Assembly (NCBI GenBank): GCA_024276745.1
Contig: JAJRWN010000056.1
Coordinates: 1-36,362, forward strand
Origin: Bacteroidota bacterium
GTDB taxonomy: Bacteria; Bacteroidota; Bacteroidia; Chitinophagales; S012-47
Reading direction: 5' to 3'
Length of the DNA stretch: 36,362 bases
The position numbers and the translations under genes are program-made. This document shows positions 27,105 through 36,362 of this stretch, one piece after another (the first letter of the stretch is position 1; the number at the start of each line of letters is the position of its first letter). The notes under the pieces were generated by a model. That model saw only the letters and a program-made list of their open reading frames with translations, had not been told where the DNA came from and did not search any database.

Positions 27105-28470
27105 GCTGTTTTTTCCACTGTTGATTAAAAGAAGTGTTGGGAAATATGATTGCATCCCGGTCTTTTCCCCAGGATTTTGCAAATATTTTTTTAAACATAT
27201 AGTTTTTCATTTTCCCTGATGCCATATTCATCAAGCTACGCTTAAGCATGGCTTTGCGCCACCATTTCCATACCCGCTTTTCCATACTGCCGGCATACCC
27301 ATCATTGTTCAACAAATTTCGATTATACAAAAGTAAATTATGCAGATCGATTTTTACGGGACATGTTTCGGTACAAGCACCACAAAGACTTGAGGCAAAA
27401 CTAAGATGACCGGCTTTTTCTTTGCCGGCAAAATGTGGTGAAATTACCGAACCGATGGGTCCGCTATAGGTTTGCCCGTAAGTATGGCCGCCTATGGTTT
27501 TATAAACCGGACATACGTTAAGGCATGCGCCACAACGAATACAATGCATCACTTGACGCAATTGAACATCGGCCAATATATCCGAGCGGCCATTATCCAT
27601 TAATATCACATACATCTCTTCGGGACCACCGGCTTCGCTGTCTTTGGCAGGCCCGGTAAAGAGGGTATTGTAAACCGTAAGTTTTTGCCCGGTACCATAG
27701 GTAGCCAGCAAAGGCCAAAACAAAGCCAAATCATGGATTGAAGGCAATACCCGTTCTATTCCTGCAAGAGCAATATGAACTTTTGGAAAGGTAGTGCTAA
27801 GCCTTGCATTTCCTTCATTCTCGGTAATAGCAATACCCCCTACATCGGCAACTATGAAGTTTGCTCCCGTTATACCAATATCTGCCCGTATATATTTTTC
27901 GCGAAGAGCTTCACGGGCAGCCATGGTAAGTTGCTCCGGGGTATTGTCTTCGGGAGTACCTAATTTCTCGTGAAAAAGTTGGGCAACATCTTCTTTCGAT
28001 TTATGCATGGCCGGAGTTACAATATGATATGGTTTTTCACCGGCAAGCTGTACAATAAACTCCCCTAAATCAGTCTCCGACACTTCAATGCCTTTTGCCT
28101 CAAGGGCATCGTTTAATTCAATTTCTTCGGTGGCCATACTTTTTGATTTTACCACCGTTCTACCATTGTGTTTTTCTATGATTCCTAATATTAGATTGCG
28201 TGCCTCTTCCGCATCTTTTGCCCAAAGTATTTGCCCTCCATTACGCAAAAAATTACGCTCAAATTCCATCAGATAATTATCCAGCGATTCGATGGTTTTC
28301 CATTTTACGGCATGTGCTTTCCTTCTGGCAAGTTCAAGATCGGTATATTGTTTCTTCCCCTCTTCAACACCAGCCAAATACTTTGAGATATTAAACCTAA
28401 GCTTATTACGATGAGTAATATCGGCCGCTTTTAAACTTGATTTTTCTAAAAATTCTTCTTTAGGATTCAT
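27088..28470 (-). CDS. lutB: LutB-like iron-sulfur lactate utilization protein (LUD domain plus 4Fe-4S)
   Basis: SMATEEIELNDALEAKGIEVSETDLGEFIVQLAGEKPYHIVTPAMHKS, CIRCGACLNVCPVYKTIGGHTYG, CGACTETCPVKIDLHNLLL. Confidence 0.9.
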   Translation of the reverse strand: MNPKEEFLEKSSLKAADITHRNKLRFNISKYLAGVEEGKKQYTDLELARRKAHAVKWKTIESLDNYLMEFERNFLRNGGQILWAKDAEEARNLILGIIEKHNGRTVVKSKSMATEEIELNDALEAKGIEVSETDLGEFIVQLAGEKPYHIVTPAMHKSKEDVAQLFHEKLGTPEDNTPEQLTMAAREALREKYIRADIGITGANFIVADVGGIAITENEGNARLSTTFPKVHIALAGIERVLPSIHDLALFWPLLATYGTGQKLTVYNTLFTGPAKDSEAGGPEEMYVILMDNGRSDILADVQLRQVMHCIRCGACLNVCPVYKTIGGHTYGQTYSGPIGSVISPHFAGKEKAGHLSFASSLCGACTETCPVKIDLHNLLLYNRNLLNNDGYAGSMEKRVWKWWRKAMLKRSLMNMASGKMKNYMFKKIFAKSWGKDRDAIIFPNTSFNQQWKKQHGKAS

Positions 28471-28590
28471 GGAAGCATTTAAGGATGTAAAGTTATAAAT
28501 TGTATCTTGTAAGCGGTAAGTATCCGGCTACTCATTAATGCATATTTTTATGGCCTATAGTAATTGTTTATTTTTATTTTCTTTTTTTCT

Positions 28591-28698
28591 ATGAATTACA
28601 GTTGGAACAAACGAACCTTTATCCTCAGTAAAATCAGTCTGATTAGTCTTATACTCACCACTTTCCCGGCCTGTAATACCACACCCCAAAAGCAGTAA
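28591..28698 (+). other. Orphan lipoprotein signal-peptide ORF (35 codons) ending in TAA, in frame with the downstream VCBS/ASPIC ORF
   Basis: Translates to MNYSWNKRTFILSKISLISLILTTFPACNTTPQKQ*; the frame continues IKKPLFSLISAENSGIYFNN... (28591 and 28711 differ by 120 nt). Confidence 0.75.
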
Positions 28699-28710
28699 AT
28701 TAAAAAACCT

Positions 28711-31700
28711 TTGTTTTCTTTGATTAGTGCTGAAAATTCAGGTATTTATTTTAATAATACATTAAGAGAGGATACTCAAAAAAATTATTTCACTTATCAA
28801 TATATCTATAATGGTGGAGGTGTTGCTTGTGGTGATTTGAACGGTGACGGCCTGCCGGACCTGTTCTTTACCGCAAATCAAACAAAAGATCAATTATATC
28901 TGAATGACGGATCTATGCATTTTCATAATGCCAGCCAATTACTTGATCCATCAGCTGATTATGGGTGGTCAACAGGGGTTTCGCTGGCAGATGTAAACGC
29001 TGATGGTCTGCTGGATATTTATGTTTGCAAATCGGCAAAATATCCGGCTGCCAAACGTCAAAATGTACTCTACATCCAGCAAGCTGACGGACATTTTTTA
29101 AATCAGGCTTCAGACTATGGTTTAAATGATCCTGCTTATAGCACACAAGCTTCCTTTTTTGATTATGATCTGGATGGTGATTTGGATATGTATTTAATGA
29201 ATCATCCGCCTGATAATCAGGCAAGTCTTACTGATTTGGTTCAAAAAAATAATCAACGTGACCAAATGAGAAGCGATAAATTATACCGGAACAACGGAGA
29301 TCATACTTTTAGCGATGTAAGTACATCATCCGGATTGTTGCCCGATTATTATGGATATGGCTTAGGCTTGTGTACGGTTGATATAAACGGAGACGGATGG
29401 ACCGATATCTATGTAGCAAATGATTATAGTATTCCTGATTACATGTATATAAACCAAAAAAACGGAAGCTTTCTTGAAAGCTATTCAAACATGACCCAAC
29501 AAGGTTCCTTTTATGGTATGGGTTGCGATATTGCAGATTATAATAACGATAAACTACCCGATATTGTAGTAGCGGATATGCTCTGCCGTGATCACTACAG
29601 ACGATTATCACAATTAGCAGGAAAAGCCAGCAAGGATTTTACTCAATATTTAGAAGCCGGATTTCATCCTACCTATATGGCTAATAGTCTTCAATTGAAT
29701 AATGGTGACGGTACTTTCAGCGAAATAGCTGCTTTGGCCGGAATAAAAGCCACGGACTGGAGTTGGTCGGTATTATTGCAAGACCTGGATAACGATGCCT
29801 GGAAAGATCTCTTTATAAGCAATGGATATCTGCACGATGTACGGAATATTGACGTGATTAATAATCGAAAAAAAAGAGCCAATAAACAAGGTTTGTATAA
29901 AGTTCGATTGTTCGATGAACTGAATAAAATACCTTCTCATAAACTGAGCAATTTTACATTCAGAAATAATCATGACCTTACTTTTGATTGGGTAAGCGGT
30001 CAATGGGGATTAAACAAAGCTTCATTTTCTAACGGAGCTGTATTTGCTGACCTTGACCAGGATGGAGATCTTGATTTAGTCGTAAACAATCTTAATGATC
30101 CGGCCTTTGTTTACGAAAACAATAGCCGTCAAATTGGGCTAAATCATTATATTGATATCGCCTTAAGCGCAAGCGATAATCCCATATTGGTGTACAATAC
30201 AAAAATTGAAATTGAAACAGCATCAACTTTTCAAAATCAAGAATATACTCCGGTAAGAGGTTATGAATCGGCTGCTGCAATACCCTTACATTTTGGCCTT
30301 GGAGCCGATTCTTTAATCAAAAAAATGATTGTCACTTGGCCCGATGGAAAACAAAATATATTGGATAATTTACCGGCAGACCAACTCATTCGGGTCAATC
30401 ATCAAGATGCCACAGATGCTGACAAAAAAGATGAAAATGCTATTGCTTTGTTTAAAGAAATCACCCATCAGATTGGTTTTGATTTAAAAGCTACTGTCTG
30501 GAAACATCCAGATGATTATGCTTCACAAGCACTATTACCTTTCAGTGTCACCGCACAAGGGCCACAGCTTGCAAACGCTGATGTAAATGCAGACGGATTA
30601 GAGGATGTATATCTGGGCGGAGGCAAGGGAAGTGCCGGTAAATTATTTATCCAACAAAACAATGGACAATTTGTTTTATCAAAAAATAAAGTATTTGCAA
30701 AAGATAAAGATTTAGTTGACGGTCAAGCGGCTTTCCTTGATATCGACAACGATGGCGATGTTGATTTGTATGTAGCCACTTGTGCCGGCAGTAACGATTC
30801 TTCCAAAAATAATGCCCCCGACCGGCTCTATTTGAATAATGGAAAGGGAATATTTCAAAAATCATCTGCCTCAATTCCTGATATCAATACAGCAACATTT
30901 TGTGTATTGCCCATCAATGCAAACAATGATCAATACACCGATTTGTTTGTTGGCGGACAAGTGGTACCCGGACATTATCCGGAAACACCAAAATCTTATT
31001 TACTGATTAATCATGCAGGAAAATTTACAGACAGTACAGATGTTTTAGCACCGGCACTTCGCCAGGCAGGCCTCGTTAGAAGTGCTTTATTTGTCAATAT
31101 TTTGGGAGATCGAATGCCCGAATTGATCGTAGCCGGTGAATGGATGCCGATACGTGTTTTTGCTTTTAACGGGCATACTTGGATGCCAATGCATCCGGCC
31201 GGTTTGGAACATACAAACGGATGGTGGCAATCACTGGCTGCTGCAGATTTTGATCAAGATGGTGACCTTGATCTTGTTGCAGGCAATATGGGTTTAAACA
31301 ACGATTTTCATGCAAGTCCCGATCAACCCTTAGAAAATTATCTTCTAAGCAATTCGCAAAACAATAAACCATACTTATTTTTTAGCCACTACGAAAAAGG
31401 AACCCCTTATCCTATAGAACATTTCGATGTTTTAACTCAGTACTTGCCGCTTATTAAAAATAAATATCCGAATAACAATACATTTGCAAGAGCCAGTACA
31501 AACGAAATTATTTCAGGAATTCAGACAAGCGGACATTACACCATTCATCAATTGGCAAGCGTACTGTTGGAAAATCTGGGGGATAGCAGCTTCCGGGTTA
31601 AACCCTTTTCAAAAATCATTCAAAGAGCACCGGCAATGGGACTTTTGGTTGATGATTTTAATCAAGATGGAAACTACGATATTCTCGTAGCAGGAAATTT

Positions 31701-32025
31701 TAACCAAACTGCTTCCGGTAAAAGCCCATTTAACGGTTCAAGCGGTACTTATTTAAATGGAAACGGAATGGGTGATTTTTGGATTCAAATGTCTTATATT
31801 AGTGGTTTCAACACAACTGGTGCAGGAAGAAATATAATTTTAATCCATTTAAAATCAGGTGATCAGGTAATTTTGCAAAGTCAGTACAATGAAACTATAA
31901 AAGCTTGGTTAATACAAAATAATGATTCTGATGTGATTACTTTATCAACCAAAACACAATACGTCAATACTTGGGGAGACAGTCCTATAAGTACCAATGA
32001 TACCGGGTCATGGGAAGACGAATGA
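28711..32025 (+). CDS. FG-GAP/VCBS repeat plus ASPIC/UnbV domain protein (CRTAC1-like); N-terminal signal separated by an in-frame stop
   Basis: Repeated DxNxDG-type motifs (GDLNGDGLPDLFF, ADVNADGLLDIYVC, DYDLDGDLDMYL, DINGDGWTDIYVAND); UnbV-like VTWPDGKQNILDNLPADQLI. ORF-track start is TTG, not ATG. Confidence 0.85.
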   Translation: MFSLISAENSGIYFNNTLREDTQKNYFTYQYIYNGGGVACGDLNGDGLPDLFFTANQTKDQLYLNDGSMHFHNASQLLDPSADYGWSTGVSLADVNADGLLDIYVCKSAKYPAAKRQNVLYIQQADGHFLNQASDYGLNDPAYSTQASFFDYDLDGDLDMYLMNHPPDNQASLTDLVQKNNQRDQMRSDKLYRNNGDHTFSDVSTSSGLLPDYYGYGLGLCTVDINGDGWTDIYVANDYSIPDYMYINQKNGSFLESYSNMTQQGSFYGMGCDIADYNNDKLPDIVVADMLCRDHYRRLSQLAGKASKDFTQYLEAGFHPTYMANSLQLNNGDGTFSEIAALAGIKATDWSWSVLLQDLDNDAWKDLFISNGYLHDVRNIDVINNRKKRANKQGLYKVRLFDELNKIPSHKLSNFTFRNNHDLTFDWVSGQWGLNKASFSNGAVFADLDQDGDLDLVVNNLNDPAFVYENNSRQIGLNHYIDIALSASDNPILVYNTKIEIETASTFQNQEYTPVRGYESAAAIPLHFGLGADSLIKKMIVTWPDGKQNILDNLPADQLIRVNHQDATDADKKDENAIALFKEITHQIGFDLKATVWKHPDDYASQALLPFSVTAQGPQLANADVNADGLEDVYLGGGKGSAGKLFIQQNNGQFVLSKNKVFAKDKDLVDGQAAFLDIDNDGDVDLYVATCAGSNDSSKNNAPDRLYLNNGKGIFQKSSASIPDINTATFCVLPINANNDQYTDLFVGGQVVPGHYPETPKSYLLINHAGKFTDSTDVLAPALRQAGLVRSALFVNILGDRMPELIVAGEWMPIRVFAFNGHTWMPMHPAGLEHTNGWWQSLAAADFDQDGDLDLVAGNMGLNNDFHASPDQPLENYLLSNSQNNKPYLFFSHYEKGTPYPIEHFDVLTQYLPLIKNKYPNNNTFARASTNEIISGIQTSGHYTIHQLASVLLENLGDSSFRVKPFSKIIQRAPAMGLLVDDFNQDGNYDILVAGNFNQTASGKSPFNGSSGTYLNGNGMGDFWIQMSYISGFNTTGAGRNIILIHLKSGDQVILQSQYNETIKAWLIQNNDSDVITLSTKTQYVNTWGDSPISTNDTGSWEDE

Positions 32026-32042
32026 AATAAAAACCTAAAACC

Positions 32043-35000
32043 ATGAATAAAACAATCCAAAAAAATTTTGCTTTAATCTCAATTATTTTCGTGTATTCGT
32101 GCAATACCGGAGAAAAAACACCTTATGAAGGTAAAATGCTCGAATTAATGCCGCCATCGGCAAGCCATATTGATTTCATCAATCAAGTAGATGAAACCCA
32201 GGAAGCTAATTATATGACTTACGAAGGATTCTACCAGGGGGCCGGAGTTGCCACAGCTGATTTTAATAATGACGGTTTACCGGATATTTACTTTGCCGGA
32301 AATCTAAAAGAAGATAAACTGTACTTAAATAAAGGTGATATGCATTTTGAAGATATTACCGAAAGTGCAGGTATAGCCAATGACAAGGGATGGTCGGCTG
32401 GCGTCAGCGTAGCCGATGTAAACCACGATGGATGGCTCGATATTTATGTTTGCAAATTTCTTTGGAAACAAGATAGCTTAAGACATAATTTACTTTATAT
32501 CAATAATGGTGATATGACTTTTACCGAATCGGCTAAAGCATTTGGTATTGACGATGACGGATATTCGGTACAAGCCAGTTTTTTTGATTACGACCGGGAT
32601 GGTGATTTAGATTTATATGTTGTTAATCAACCACCGGATTATTATAAAGACCGGCAAGCACTAAGCGGATATGTTGATTATAAATATACCGACCGCTTGT
32701 ATGAAAATATGGGTCAAAATCATTTTGTTGATGTAACGGGGAAAGCAGGTATAAGCAATTATGCTTACGGATTAAGTGCAACGGTAGCCGATATAGATAA
32801 TGACGGCTGGCCGGATATTTATGTAGCCTGCGATTATGAAGCACCCGATTTTATGTATATCAATAATCATGACGGCACTTTCACAAATCATATCAACCAA
32901 TCACTCCGGCATATTTCCAATTACAGCATGGGGTCTGATGTAGCCGATTTTAATAATGACGGGTTTCTCGATATCTATGAAGCCGATATGGTAGCGCCTG
33001 ATAATTACCGGCTAAAAGCAAATATGAGTGGTATGAATCCACAAAAATTTTGGAATCTTGCCAATGCAGGCATGCATTATCAGTATATGTTCAATTCGCT
33101 GCAACTAAACCGGGGTAACCGGTATTTCAGCGAAATGGGTCAAATGGCCAATGTATCGGAAACCGACTGGAGCTGGACAGCCATGTTTTCGGATTTGGAT
33201 AATGACGGATTAAAAGATTTAATTGTCACCAATGGCATGAAACGGGATGTCACGAATACAGATTACCGGCACCGGATACAAGATTCTCTAAAAGTGCAAC
33301 AAGCAAGAGCACAAGCAAATGGTATTCAAAATTTTGAACCGGATTGGCTATCATTACTCACTTTGGCACCATCGGTAAAGCTGTCTGATTATCTATTCCA
33401 CAATAAAGGAGATTTAACTTTTAAAAATGTAGCCGCAGAATGGGGCTTCGACCGGCCGGGATGGGATCATGGTGTAGCACTGGCCGATTTGGATCAGGAT
33501 GGTGATTTGGATATGGTCGTCAACTCGCTAAACGATACTGCCCATATTTATCAAAATCATACCAACGATTTGAATGATAATAATTATATCAATTTCACAT
33601 TAAAAGGAAATTCCAGCAATCCTTTCTCTTATGGTGCAAGAGTTGAAATATACACACCAGACAGCAGCATGCAAGTACAAGAATTAATACCTGTACGCGG
33701 ATTTATGTCGTCAAACGAACCCATCATTCATTTTGGACTTCAACATAATCAAAAGGTCGATAAAATCATTATCAGATGGCCCAGCGGTCATACCATGGAA
33801 CTCAATAATCTGGAAGCAAACAAAACCTATGAATTGTACGAAAAAGAAGCTTCCCTTGAATATACCAGACCCAATATTACAAGCAATCCTTTATTTGCCG
33901 ATGTAAGCAGTGAAATAAAACTACATTACAAACATCAGGAAAACAATTTTGACGATTATGCCCGCGAAAGCCTTATTCCATATAAAATGTCGCAATTGGG
34001 ACCAAGCATTAGTTGTGCAGATGTAAATGGAGATTCCCTTCCAGATTTTTTTATTGGAGGTGCTCTTGGACAAAGCGGGAAAATATTTTATCAAACAACA
34101 TCAGGAAAATTTGAAAAATCAAATCAAGCAGCTTTAGAAGCAGATAAATCTTATGAAGATATCGGTTCAAGCTTTTTCGATGCCGATGGAGACGGTGATA
34201 TGGATTTATATGTATCGAGTGGAGGAAACGAATATGATATAGGTTCTACGTTTTATCGGGATCGATTATACCTCAATGACGGACAGGGACATTTTAGCAA
34301 AGCAACTAATGCCCTGCCTGATATCAGAGAAAGCAGCGGATGCGTAAAAGTTTTTGATTATGATCAGGACGGAGATCAGGATGTATTTATTGCCGGAAGA
34401 CAAAAACCCGGGCAATATCCTTTCCCGGCCAGTTCTTATATCTTACGAAATGATCAAGGTAAATTTACAAATGTCAGTCAGCAAATTGCACCTGCCTTGA
34501 AAGATATCGGCATGGTTACAGATGCAGTATGGACGGATATCAATCAAGATAATAATATCGATTTGGTATTGGTAGGAGAATGGATGCCTATTCGTATTTT
34601 AGAAAATCAGGCCGGCCGGTTTATCGACCAAACACAAGCTTATCACCTTGATCAGGAAACCGGATTCTGGAATACCATAAGCGCAGCAGATTTTGATCAA
34701 GACGGTGATATGGATTTAGTGGCCGGTAATATGGGTTTAAACCAAAAATACAAAGCCAGCGAGTCAGCTCCTTTTAGTGTTTATTGCACCGATTTTGATG
34801 AAAACGGTTCCCTCGATATCGTTTTGGGCTATGTAAACAATGGGGTTTCTTATCCTTTAAGAGGTCGCAGTTGTTCGTCAAGACAAATGCCCTATCTGAA
34901 AGACCGTTTCCCTACCTACGATACTTTTGCAAGCTCATCAATCGAAACTATTTATGGAGATAAATTAAACGATGCCCTGCACTATGATGCACATGATTTC

Positions 35001-35483
35001 GCCTCGGTTTACCTTGAAAACAAAGGCAACCGGCAGTTTGAGATTAACGCATTACCTATGATTGCTCAAATATCCACGATTTTTGATATTATTCCTTTTG
35101 ATTTTGATTTGGATGGAAATCTTGACTTAATTGTTTCGGGCAATTTATATGCACGCGAAATTGAAACCCAGAGAAACGATGGTGGCTATGGGCTTTATAT
35201 GAAAGGAGACGGGCATGGACATTTTAAAGCGGTTCCGATTGTAAAAAGCGGTTTCTTCACTCCGGGCGATGTTAAGCAATTGGCTTTGACCTATACGGCA
35301 GAAGGATTTCCTTTAATTCTGGTGGCTAAAAACAATGATTACATGCAGGCTATCGTGTGTACCAGCCGCTCGGCTGATGCCGGAACTACCACAAAATTTA
35401 AAGCCAAAGTAAAATATGCCAATACCTGGGCCGATGCACCGATAACCGATAATACCGACACAATTACCTGGAAGATTGAATAA
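32043..35483 (+). CDS. FG-GAP/VCBS repeat plus ASPIC/UnbV domain lipoprotein (CRTAC1-like)
   Basis: Signal/lipobox ISIIFVYSCNTG; ADFNNDGLPDIYFAGN, DYDRDGDLDLYVVN, DIDNDGWPDIYVACDY; UnbV-like IIRWPSGHTMELNNLEANKTYEL. Confidence 0.92.
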   Translation: MNKTIQKNFALISIIFVYSCNTGEKTPYEGKMLELMPPSASHIDFINQVDETQEANYMTYEGFYQGAGVATADFNNDGLPDIYFAGNLKEDKLYLNKGDMHFEDITESAGIANDKGWSAGVSVADVNHDGWLDIYVCKFLWKQDSLRHNLLYINNGDMTFTESAKAFGIDDDGYSVQASFFDYDRDGDLDLYVVNQPPDYYKDRQALSGYVDYKYTDRLYENMGQNHFVDVTGKAGISNYAYGLSATVADIDNDGWPDIYVACDYEAPDFMYINNHDGTFTNHINQSLRHISNYSMGSDVADFNNDGFLDIYEADMVAPDNYRLKANMSGMNPQKFWNLANAGMHYQYMFNSLQLNRGNRYFSEMGQMANVSETDWSWTAMFSDLDNDGLKDLIVTNGMKRDVTNTDYRHRIQDSLKVQQARAQANGIQNFEPDWLSLLTLAPSVKLSDYLFHNKGDLTFKNVAAEWGFDRPGWDHGVALADLDQDGDLDMVVNSLNDTAHIYQNHTNDLNDNNYINFTLKGNSSNPFSYGARVEIYTPDSSMQVQELIPVRGFMSSNEPIIHFGLQHNQKVDKIIIRWPSGHTMELNNLEANKTYELYEKEASLEYTRPNITSNPLFADVSSEIKLHYKHQENNFDDYARESLIPYKMSQLGPSISCADVNGDSLPDFFIGGALGQSGKIFYQTTSGKFEKSNQAALEADKSYEDIGSSFFDADGDGDMDLYVSSGGNEYDIGSTFYRDRLYLNDGQGHFSKATNALPDIRESSGCVKVFDYDQDGDQDVFIAGRQKPGQYPFPASSYILRNDQGKFTNVSQQIAPALKDIGMVTDAVWTDINQDNNIDLVLVGEWMPIRILENQAGRFIDQTQAYHLDQETGFWNTISAADFDQDGDMDLVAGNMGLNQKYKASESAPFSVYCTDFDENGSLDIVLGYVNNGVSYPLRGRSCSSRQMPYLKDRFPTYDTFASSSIETIYGDKLNDALHYDAHDFASVYLENKGNRQFEINALPMIAQISTIFDIIPFDFDLDGNLDLIVSGNLYAREIETQRNDGGYGLYMKGDGHGHFKAVPIVKSGFFTPGDVKQLALTYTAEGFPLILVAKNNDYMQAIVCTSRSADAGTTTKFKAKVKYANTWADAPITDNTDTITWKIE

Positions 35484-35510: not shown

Positions 35511-36362
35511 ATGAGTAAAATTCAAATACTATTTTCTTTGGTGTTGGTCTTTGCGGCTTCCTTCTACGCCTGTAAAAACAGTAGTAAACCGGCCGGTGAT
35601 ACCGGAAAAAATCCGGAGGAAAAATTGTTTACCTTGCTTAAACCCGGACAAACAGGTGTTGATTTTATTAATCAATTGAAAGAAGATGAAAAACGAAATA
35701 TTTTTACCTATGAATATCTCTACAACGGCAGCGGTGTTGCCGTAGGTGATTTAAACGGTGACGGTCTTCCTGAATTATTTTTTGCATCTAATTTCAGCTC
35801 CTGTAAACTCTATAGAAATGACGACAATATGCACTTCACCGATATCAGTGAAGCAGCCGGTATATCCACAAAAGGTTGGTGCTCCGGAGTTACAATGGCC
35901 GATGTAAACGAAGATGGACTTTTGGATATTTACGTGTGTCGATCGGCAAAATACCGGCCAAAAGGAAGAGCAAACTTACTTTTTATTAATGATGGAAATC
36001 TGCACTTCCACGAAGCGGCTGCCGAATATGGAATCAACGAAATGGGACACAGTACAATAGCCACATTTTTTGATTATAATCATGATGGACATCTTGATTT
36101 ATTCGTAGGCAATCATCAAATTAAATTTGCCCAGGAAATGGATTATTGGGCAAACAAACTAAAAACCACCGACCGCTGGGGCATGAACCGTCTGTATAAA
36201 AATGAAGGAAACGGCCATTTTATAGATGTAACCGAAGAATTTGATTTGAAGGATGTAGGCTTTGCTTTAAGTGTGACAACTGCCGATATTGACATGGACG
36301 GATGGGACGATATTTACGTTACCAACGACTATATCGACCGGGATTATATGTATATCAATCAA
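35511..36362 (+). CDS. Third tandem FG-GAP/VCBS repeat lipoprotein, truncated by the window edge
   Basis: 284 open codons: MSKIQILFSLVLVFAASFYACKNSSKPAG...GVAVGDLNGDGLPELFFASN...ADVNEDGLLDIYVCRSAKYR...DIDMDGWDDIYVTNDYIDRDYMYINQ; absent from the ORF track because no stop lies inside the window. Confidence 0.9.
   Translation, partial: MSKIQILFSLVLVFAASFYACKNSSKPAGDTGKNPEEKLFTLLKPGQTGVDFINQLKEDEKRNIFTYEYLYNGSGVAVGDLNGDGLPELFFASNFSSCKLYRNDDNMHFTDISEAAGISTKGWCSGVTMADVNEDGLLDIYVCRSAKYRPKGRANLLFINDGNLHFHEAAAEYGINEMGHSTIATFFDYNHDGHLDLFVGNHQIKFAQEMDYWANKLKTTDRWGMNRLYKNEGNGHFIDVTEEFDLKDVGFALSVTTADIDMDGWDDIYVTNDYIDRDYMYINQ

Follow-up and report, generated by a model that had tools for sequence, protein, structure and literature searches.

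A probable recent nonsense pseudogene among three tandem FG-GAP/UnbV_ASPIC lipoprotein paralogues in a Bacteroidota genome

The window analysed here is the whole 36,362-nucleotide stretch of contig JAJRWN010000056.1 (assembly GCA_024276745.1, Bacteroidota bacterium), and it carries near its end a tandem array of three paralogous genes. In the first of these, the ATG at 28591 opens a lipoprotein leader, MNYSWNKRTFILSKISLISLILTTFPAC-NTTPQKQ, that meets a same-frame TAA at 28696-28698, 35 codons on; beyond this stop the same frame reads IKKPLFSLISAENSG... and remains open until the TAA at 32023-32025. This layout, described by a first-pass annotation of the locus, can be read directly in the sequence. 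Past the stop, the longest listed open reading frame runs for 1104 codons from TTG 28711; this TTG and TTG 28720 are the earliest listed alternative starts. As the annotation had also remarked, there is no in-frame ATG until SMHFHN, at 28915. The features on which the following argument draws are these.

28567..28590, forward strand: T-rich stretch ahead of the leader ATG, with 17 T and 1 A in the final 20 bases
28591..28698, forward strand: 35-codon open reading frame encoding a lipoprotein-type signal peptide (lipobox-like FPAC, Cys at residue 28) and 7 linker residues, then TAA
28696..28698, forward strand: in-frame TAA dividing leader from body, the sole inactivating lesion seen in the gene
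28699..32025, forward strand: uninterrupted body with FG-GAP/VCBS repeats and a UnbV_ASPIC domain, 1104 amino acids from TTG 28711
28711..28713, forward strand: first TTG past the TAA, 12 bases on and with A-rich surroundings, a possible re-initiation site whose product would not be exported
31330..31365, forward strand: position of the family's DxDxxGxxD-type calcium-loop-like motif, SNSQNNKPY in the interrupted paralogue
32043..35483, forward strand: paralogue 2, intact, 1146 amino acids, with its own lipoprotein leader
35511..36362, forward strand: paralogue 3, leader intact, cut by the contig end, its last 548 bases overlapping the end of contig C8

Pfam assigns FG-GAP_3 (nine stretches), FG-GAP and UnbV_ASPIC domains to the body of the interrupted gene, consistent with the VCBS/ASPIC protein of about 1100 residues that the annotation had proposed. 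The same three domains are found in the paralogue at 32043, and FG-GAP repeats alone were detected in the truncated paralogue at 35511. Next to the array lie a LUD/4Fe-4S gene and a dehydrogenase gene, which occur in the same order in a genome of the same family (G002). Given that this genome keeps the neighbouring pair and that its corresponding contig gave no propeller-gene match, the array was probably gained or lost in a lineage-specific manner. Relatives at four loci elsewhere in Bacteroidota (L044, L048, L045 and L040) adjoin SusD or SusC-like genes, and at two of them (L044 and L048) a DUF6851/VCPO-like gene of the PAP2 superfamily is located between SusD and the propeller gene. Such Sus/PAP2 neighbours would fit a putative cell-surface role of the family members; literature searches on the function of the family returned nothing direct.

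Several lines of evidence support the view that leader and body once formed a single lipoprotein gene, as the annotation had argued from the downstream paralogues. When the N termini are compared, the leader is uninterrupted in both downstream paralogues and in every other homologue with its N terminus at hand, and a stop between leader and body is absent from all other family members inspected. A simple lipobox, defined by a rule of our own, is present in 72 of the 86 full-length family members, the remaining relatives having hydrophobic leaders that the rule misses. The linker from the Cys to the body measures about 12 residues including the stop, within the family range of 4 to 39, and the F-P-A-C box is compatible with the family, albeit with a proline at -2 that is rare (1/72). 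Chance is a poor source of such an arrangement: of the 5904 stop-to-stop segments of 30 to 150 amino acids in the sampled part of the genome (about 0.4 Mb), 35 resemble a lipoprotein leader, and among 222 open reading frames of at least 200 amino acids only that of the interrupted gene is preceded by such a leader ending at a stop just ahead of it. In short, the linker length and FPAC box fit, the relatives inspected have no such stop, and the juxtaposition exceeds chance, all of which suggests one former gene. Since the other inspected members lack the stop, the interruption appears to be derived, as judged from distant relatives (about 30 to 50% identity); among the 60 relatives searched, there were no same-genus orthologues. 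The interrupted gene aligns over its full length with 85 relatives, with FG-GAP and UnbV_ASPIC across some 1100 amino acids, as a family member should, but the export signal that ought to be in frame with the body is split off by the TAA, and we therefore file the gene as a broken rather than a working member.

No second stop or frameshift was found in the 1104 codons of the body. In simulations of neutral evolution over this length, the probability that no further stop arises was 0.26 at 1% divergence and 0.055 at 2%; with indels included, at an assumed 5% of substitutions, the corresponding probability was 0.05 at 1% divergence. The clean body and these simulations together imply that a stop that abolished function would be recent, with an age below roughly 1 to 2% neutral divergence. 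An intact body would also be expected under continued translation and selection of the body, which counts against a pseudogene.

The assembly in which this stop is found contains more than one haplotype. The end of the window's contig (C33; window positions 35815-36362) and the terminal 548 bases of contig C8 (L199, reverse strand) form a 548-bp overlap with 97.3% identity. Of the 14 codons that differ, 11 do so synonymously and 3 nonsynonymously, a pattern that looks like genuine alleles and not like random errors. Similar diverged overlaps, of 95 to 96%, are seen for other contig pairs. Contig C8 carries the remainder of paralogue 3, and the assembly break at the window end is probably due to strain variation. 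Elsewhere in the assembly there is no second haplotype or copy of the stop region. In Salmonella, pseudogenes are for the most part strain specific and carry one lesion; among the 346 that have a single lesion, premature stops account for 131 (PMC2916853). By analogy, a lesion as young as the present one may well be restricted to some strains. Among the homologues, a real mid-body in-frame TAA (KV*KGR) occurs at codon 1005 of the first homologue of locus L057 (G008 C162), in a frame that is otherwise open. The other internal TAAs that we had counted in homologues were mostly natural ends of reading frames, this one in G008 being the exception; nonsense alleles thus arise now and then in the family.

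The body itself is unusually diverged. Of 143 conserved columns, 19 are broken in the interrupted paralogue, more than in any other of the 86 sequences (next 16, median 5), and the length of its terminal branch ranks in the top 4 to 5%. The broken columns are concentrated in the C-terminal half, with 15 of the 19 (Fisher P = 0.0009), among them the calcium-loop-like motif DxDxxGxxD, which is replaced by SNSQNNKPY. Since these changes are too many to postdate so recent a stop, constraint on the body had probably weakened or shifted before the stop arose. The divergence would then reflect relaxed constraint, although it could be functional specialisation instead of decay, because the homologue at L059 (G057 C11) shows the same C-half divergence with its leader intact: 13 of 57 conserved columns are broken in its C-terminal half and none in its N-terminal half.

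How the stop is to be understood depends on the weight given to several alternatives. A sequencing or assembly error, in which the true codon at 28696-28698 is a sense codon and the gene encodes an ordinary lipoprotein, is unlikely but deserves consideration. Only one lesion is seen in the gene, and the assembly is fragmented, with 164 contigs, 90% completeness and mixed strains at contig ends. Isolated consensus substitutions are, however, rare in short-read de Bruijn assemblies, and it is probably such an assembly that we are dealing with: two pairs of contig ends (L135/L191 and L190/L195) share exactly 141 bp, a probable signature of de Bruijn assembly with k=141. (Overlaps of 399 bp involving L120, L188 and L196 were discarded, being identical over their whole length in both orientations, which suggests masked contigs; a search of viral contigs gave no match.) Moreover, an error would turn the unusual divergence of this particular paralogue into a coincidence. 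Another reading of the stop would be the retention of the 35-codon leader as a small lipopeptide gene, or a leader and body joined by recombination or phase variation. The still intact leader would suit this idea, which we nevertheless regard as extremely improbable, as positions 28300-29100 contain no inverted repeats and one short direct repeat that is probably due to chance, the region has no second copy in the genome, and neither of the other frames supplies a leader that could be joined to the body.

The two remaining alternatives keep the body in use. Re-initiation at TTG 28711 (or 28720) might yield a propeller protein that is still functional; since no signal sequence of its own was found in the body past the stop, any such product would be expected to stay in the cytoplasm. 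This TTG is only 12 bases from the stop, with A at 11 of the 20 bases of its context, and adenines upstream of the start are known to favour initiation in Flavobacterium johnsoniae (PMC6847099). By contrast, the sequence ahead of the leader ATG is richer in T and poorer in A than that of any other among 187 genes from the genome. Yet F. johnsoniae also favours A at the first base of a start codon (PMC6847099), whole-context scoring did not separate the two starts (36th percentile for TTG 28711, 50th for the leader ATG), and an export signal is present in the other family members inspected. We consider functional re-initiation improbable. Readthrough of the TAA, which would supply small amounts of full-length lipoprotein, whether regulated or simply tolerated, would take advantage of leader and body being intact and in frame across the stop, and appears less probable still. 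UAA is generally the least leaky bacterial stop. TAA is also the commonest stop in this genome, ending 125 of the 187 long open reading frames sampled; RNA folding past the stop in the gene is unremarkable (z = -0.87), as it is around it, and the stop with its flanking arrangement occurs in no homologue. Likewise, a suppressor tRNA or reassigned code was not found: none of the 37 tRNA genes found has a stop-reading anticodon, in a genome that is about 90% complete and might thus lack a tRNA. Conceivably, the TAA could be a maintained low-level switch, with rare readthrough or coupled re-initiation providing either small numbers of surface lipoproteins or a propeller form confined to the cytoplasm, for a paralogue specialised away from the family, a scenario to which we assign very little probability. 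Thus, of the four options that the annotation had left side by side (nonsense mutation, sequencing error, readthrough and re-initiation), a nonsense mutation is best supported, and the observations above gave no positive support to readthrough or functional re-initiation.

We conclude that the gene at 28591-32025 is probably a young nonsense pseudogene, likely strain restricted, of a paralogue already diverged in its C-terminal half, and the best reading is that this paralogue was redundant. The in-frame stop, the otherwise open body and the two adjoining paralogues with intact leaders are all in favour of a pseudogene. In the sequence of events that we envisage, the tandem trio would encode surface-type lipoproteins of Bacteroidota that combine FG-GAP/VCBS propellers with a UnbV_ASPIC domain, and one of these lipoproteins would already have lost conserved calcium-loop-like residues from its C-terminal half before the stop arose. 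A single point substitution would then have converted a linker codon just past the lipidated cysteine to TAA, in the assembled haplotype. Ribosomes starting at ATG 28591 would make only a 35-residue peptide, and a product restarted downstream, devoid of a signal sequence, would end up in the cytoplasm. We infer loss of export, loss of function and strain restriction for this gene. For annotation, recording the locus as a probable recent pseudogene, or a possible consensus error, is preferable to splitting it into two genes or calling a cytoplasmic protein that starts at TTG, and the locus illustrates that a strain-mixed assembly can pass off a transient nonsense allele as the gene of a species. 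Beyond annotation it is of little significance and an ordinary case.

The interrupted gene resembles the young single-lesion nonsense pseudogenes of Salmonella in having one premature stop in an otherwise intact, very recently interrupted frame, but its body has diverged to an unusual degree, unlike most young pseudogenes of Salmonella, in which there is little acceleration or none (PMC2916853). With the Bacteroidota VCBS/FG-GAP and UnbV_ASPIC lipoproteins of about 1100 amino acids (PF13517, PF01839, PF07593) it shares domains, length, type of leader and tandem paralogues, and it differs from them in the stop between leader and body and in the loss of several calcium-loop-like residues in the C-terminal half. 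Genes expressed by stop-codon readthrough likewise have a frame that is open past an in-frame stop; in contrast to these, the present stop is UAA, with neither a suppressor tRNA among those found nor a conserved arrangement or downstream structure.
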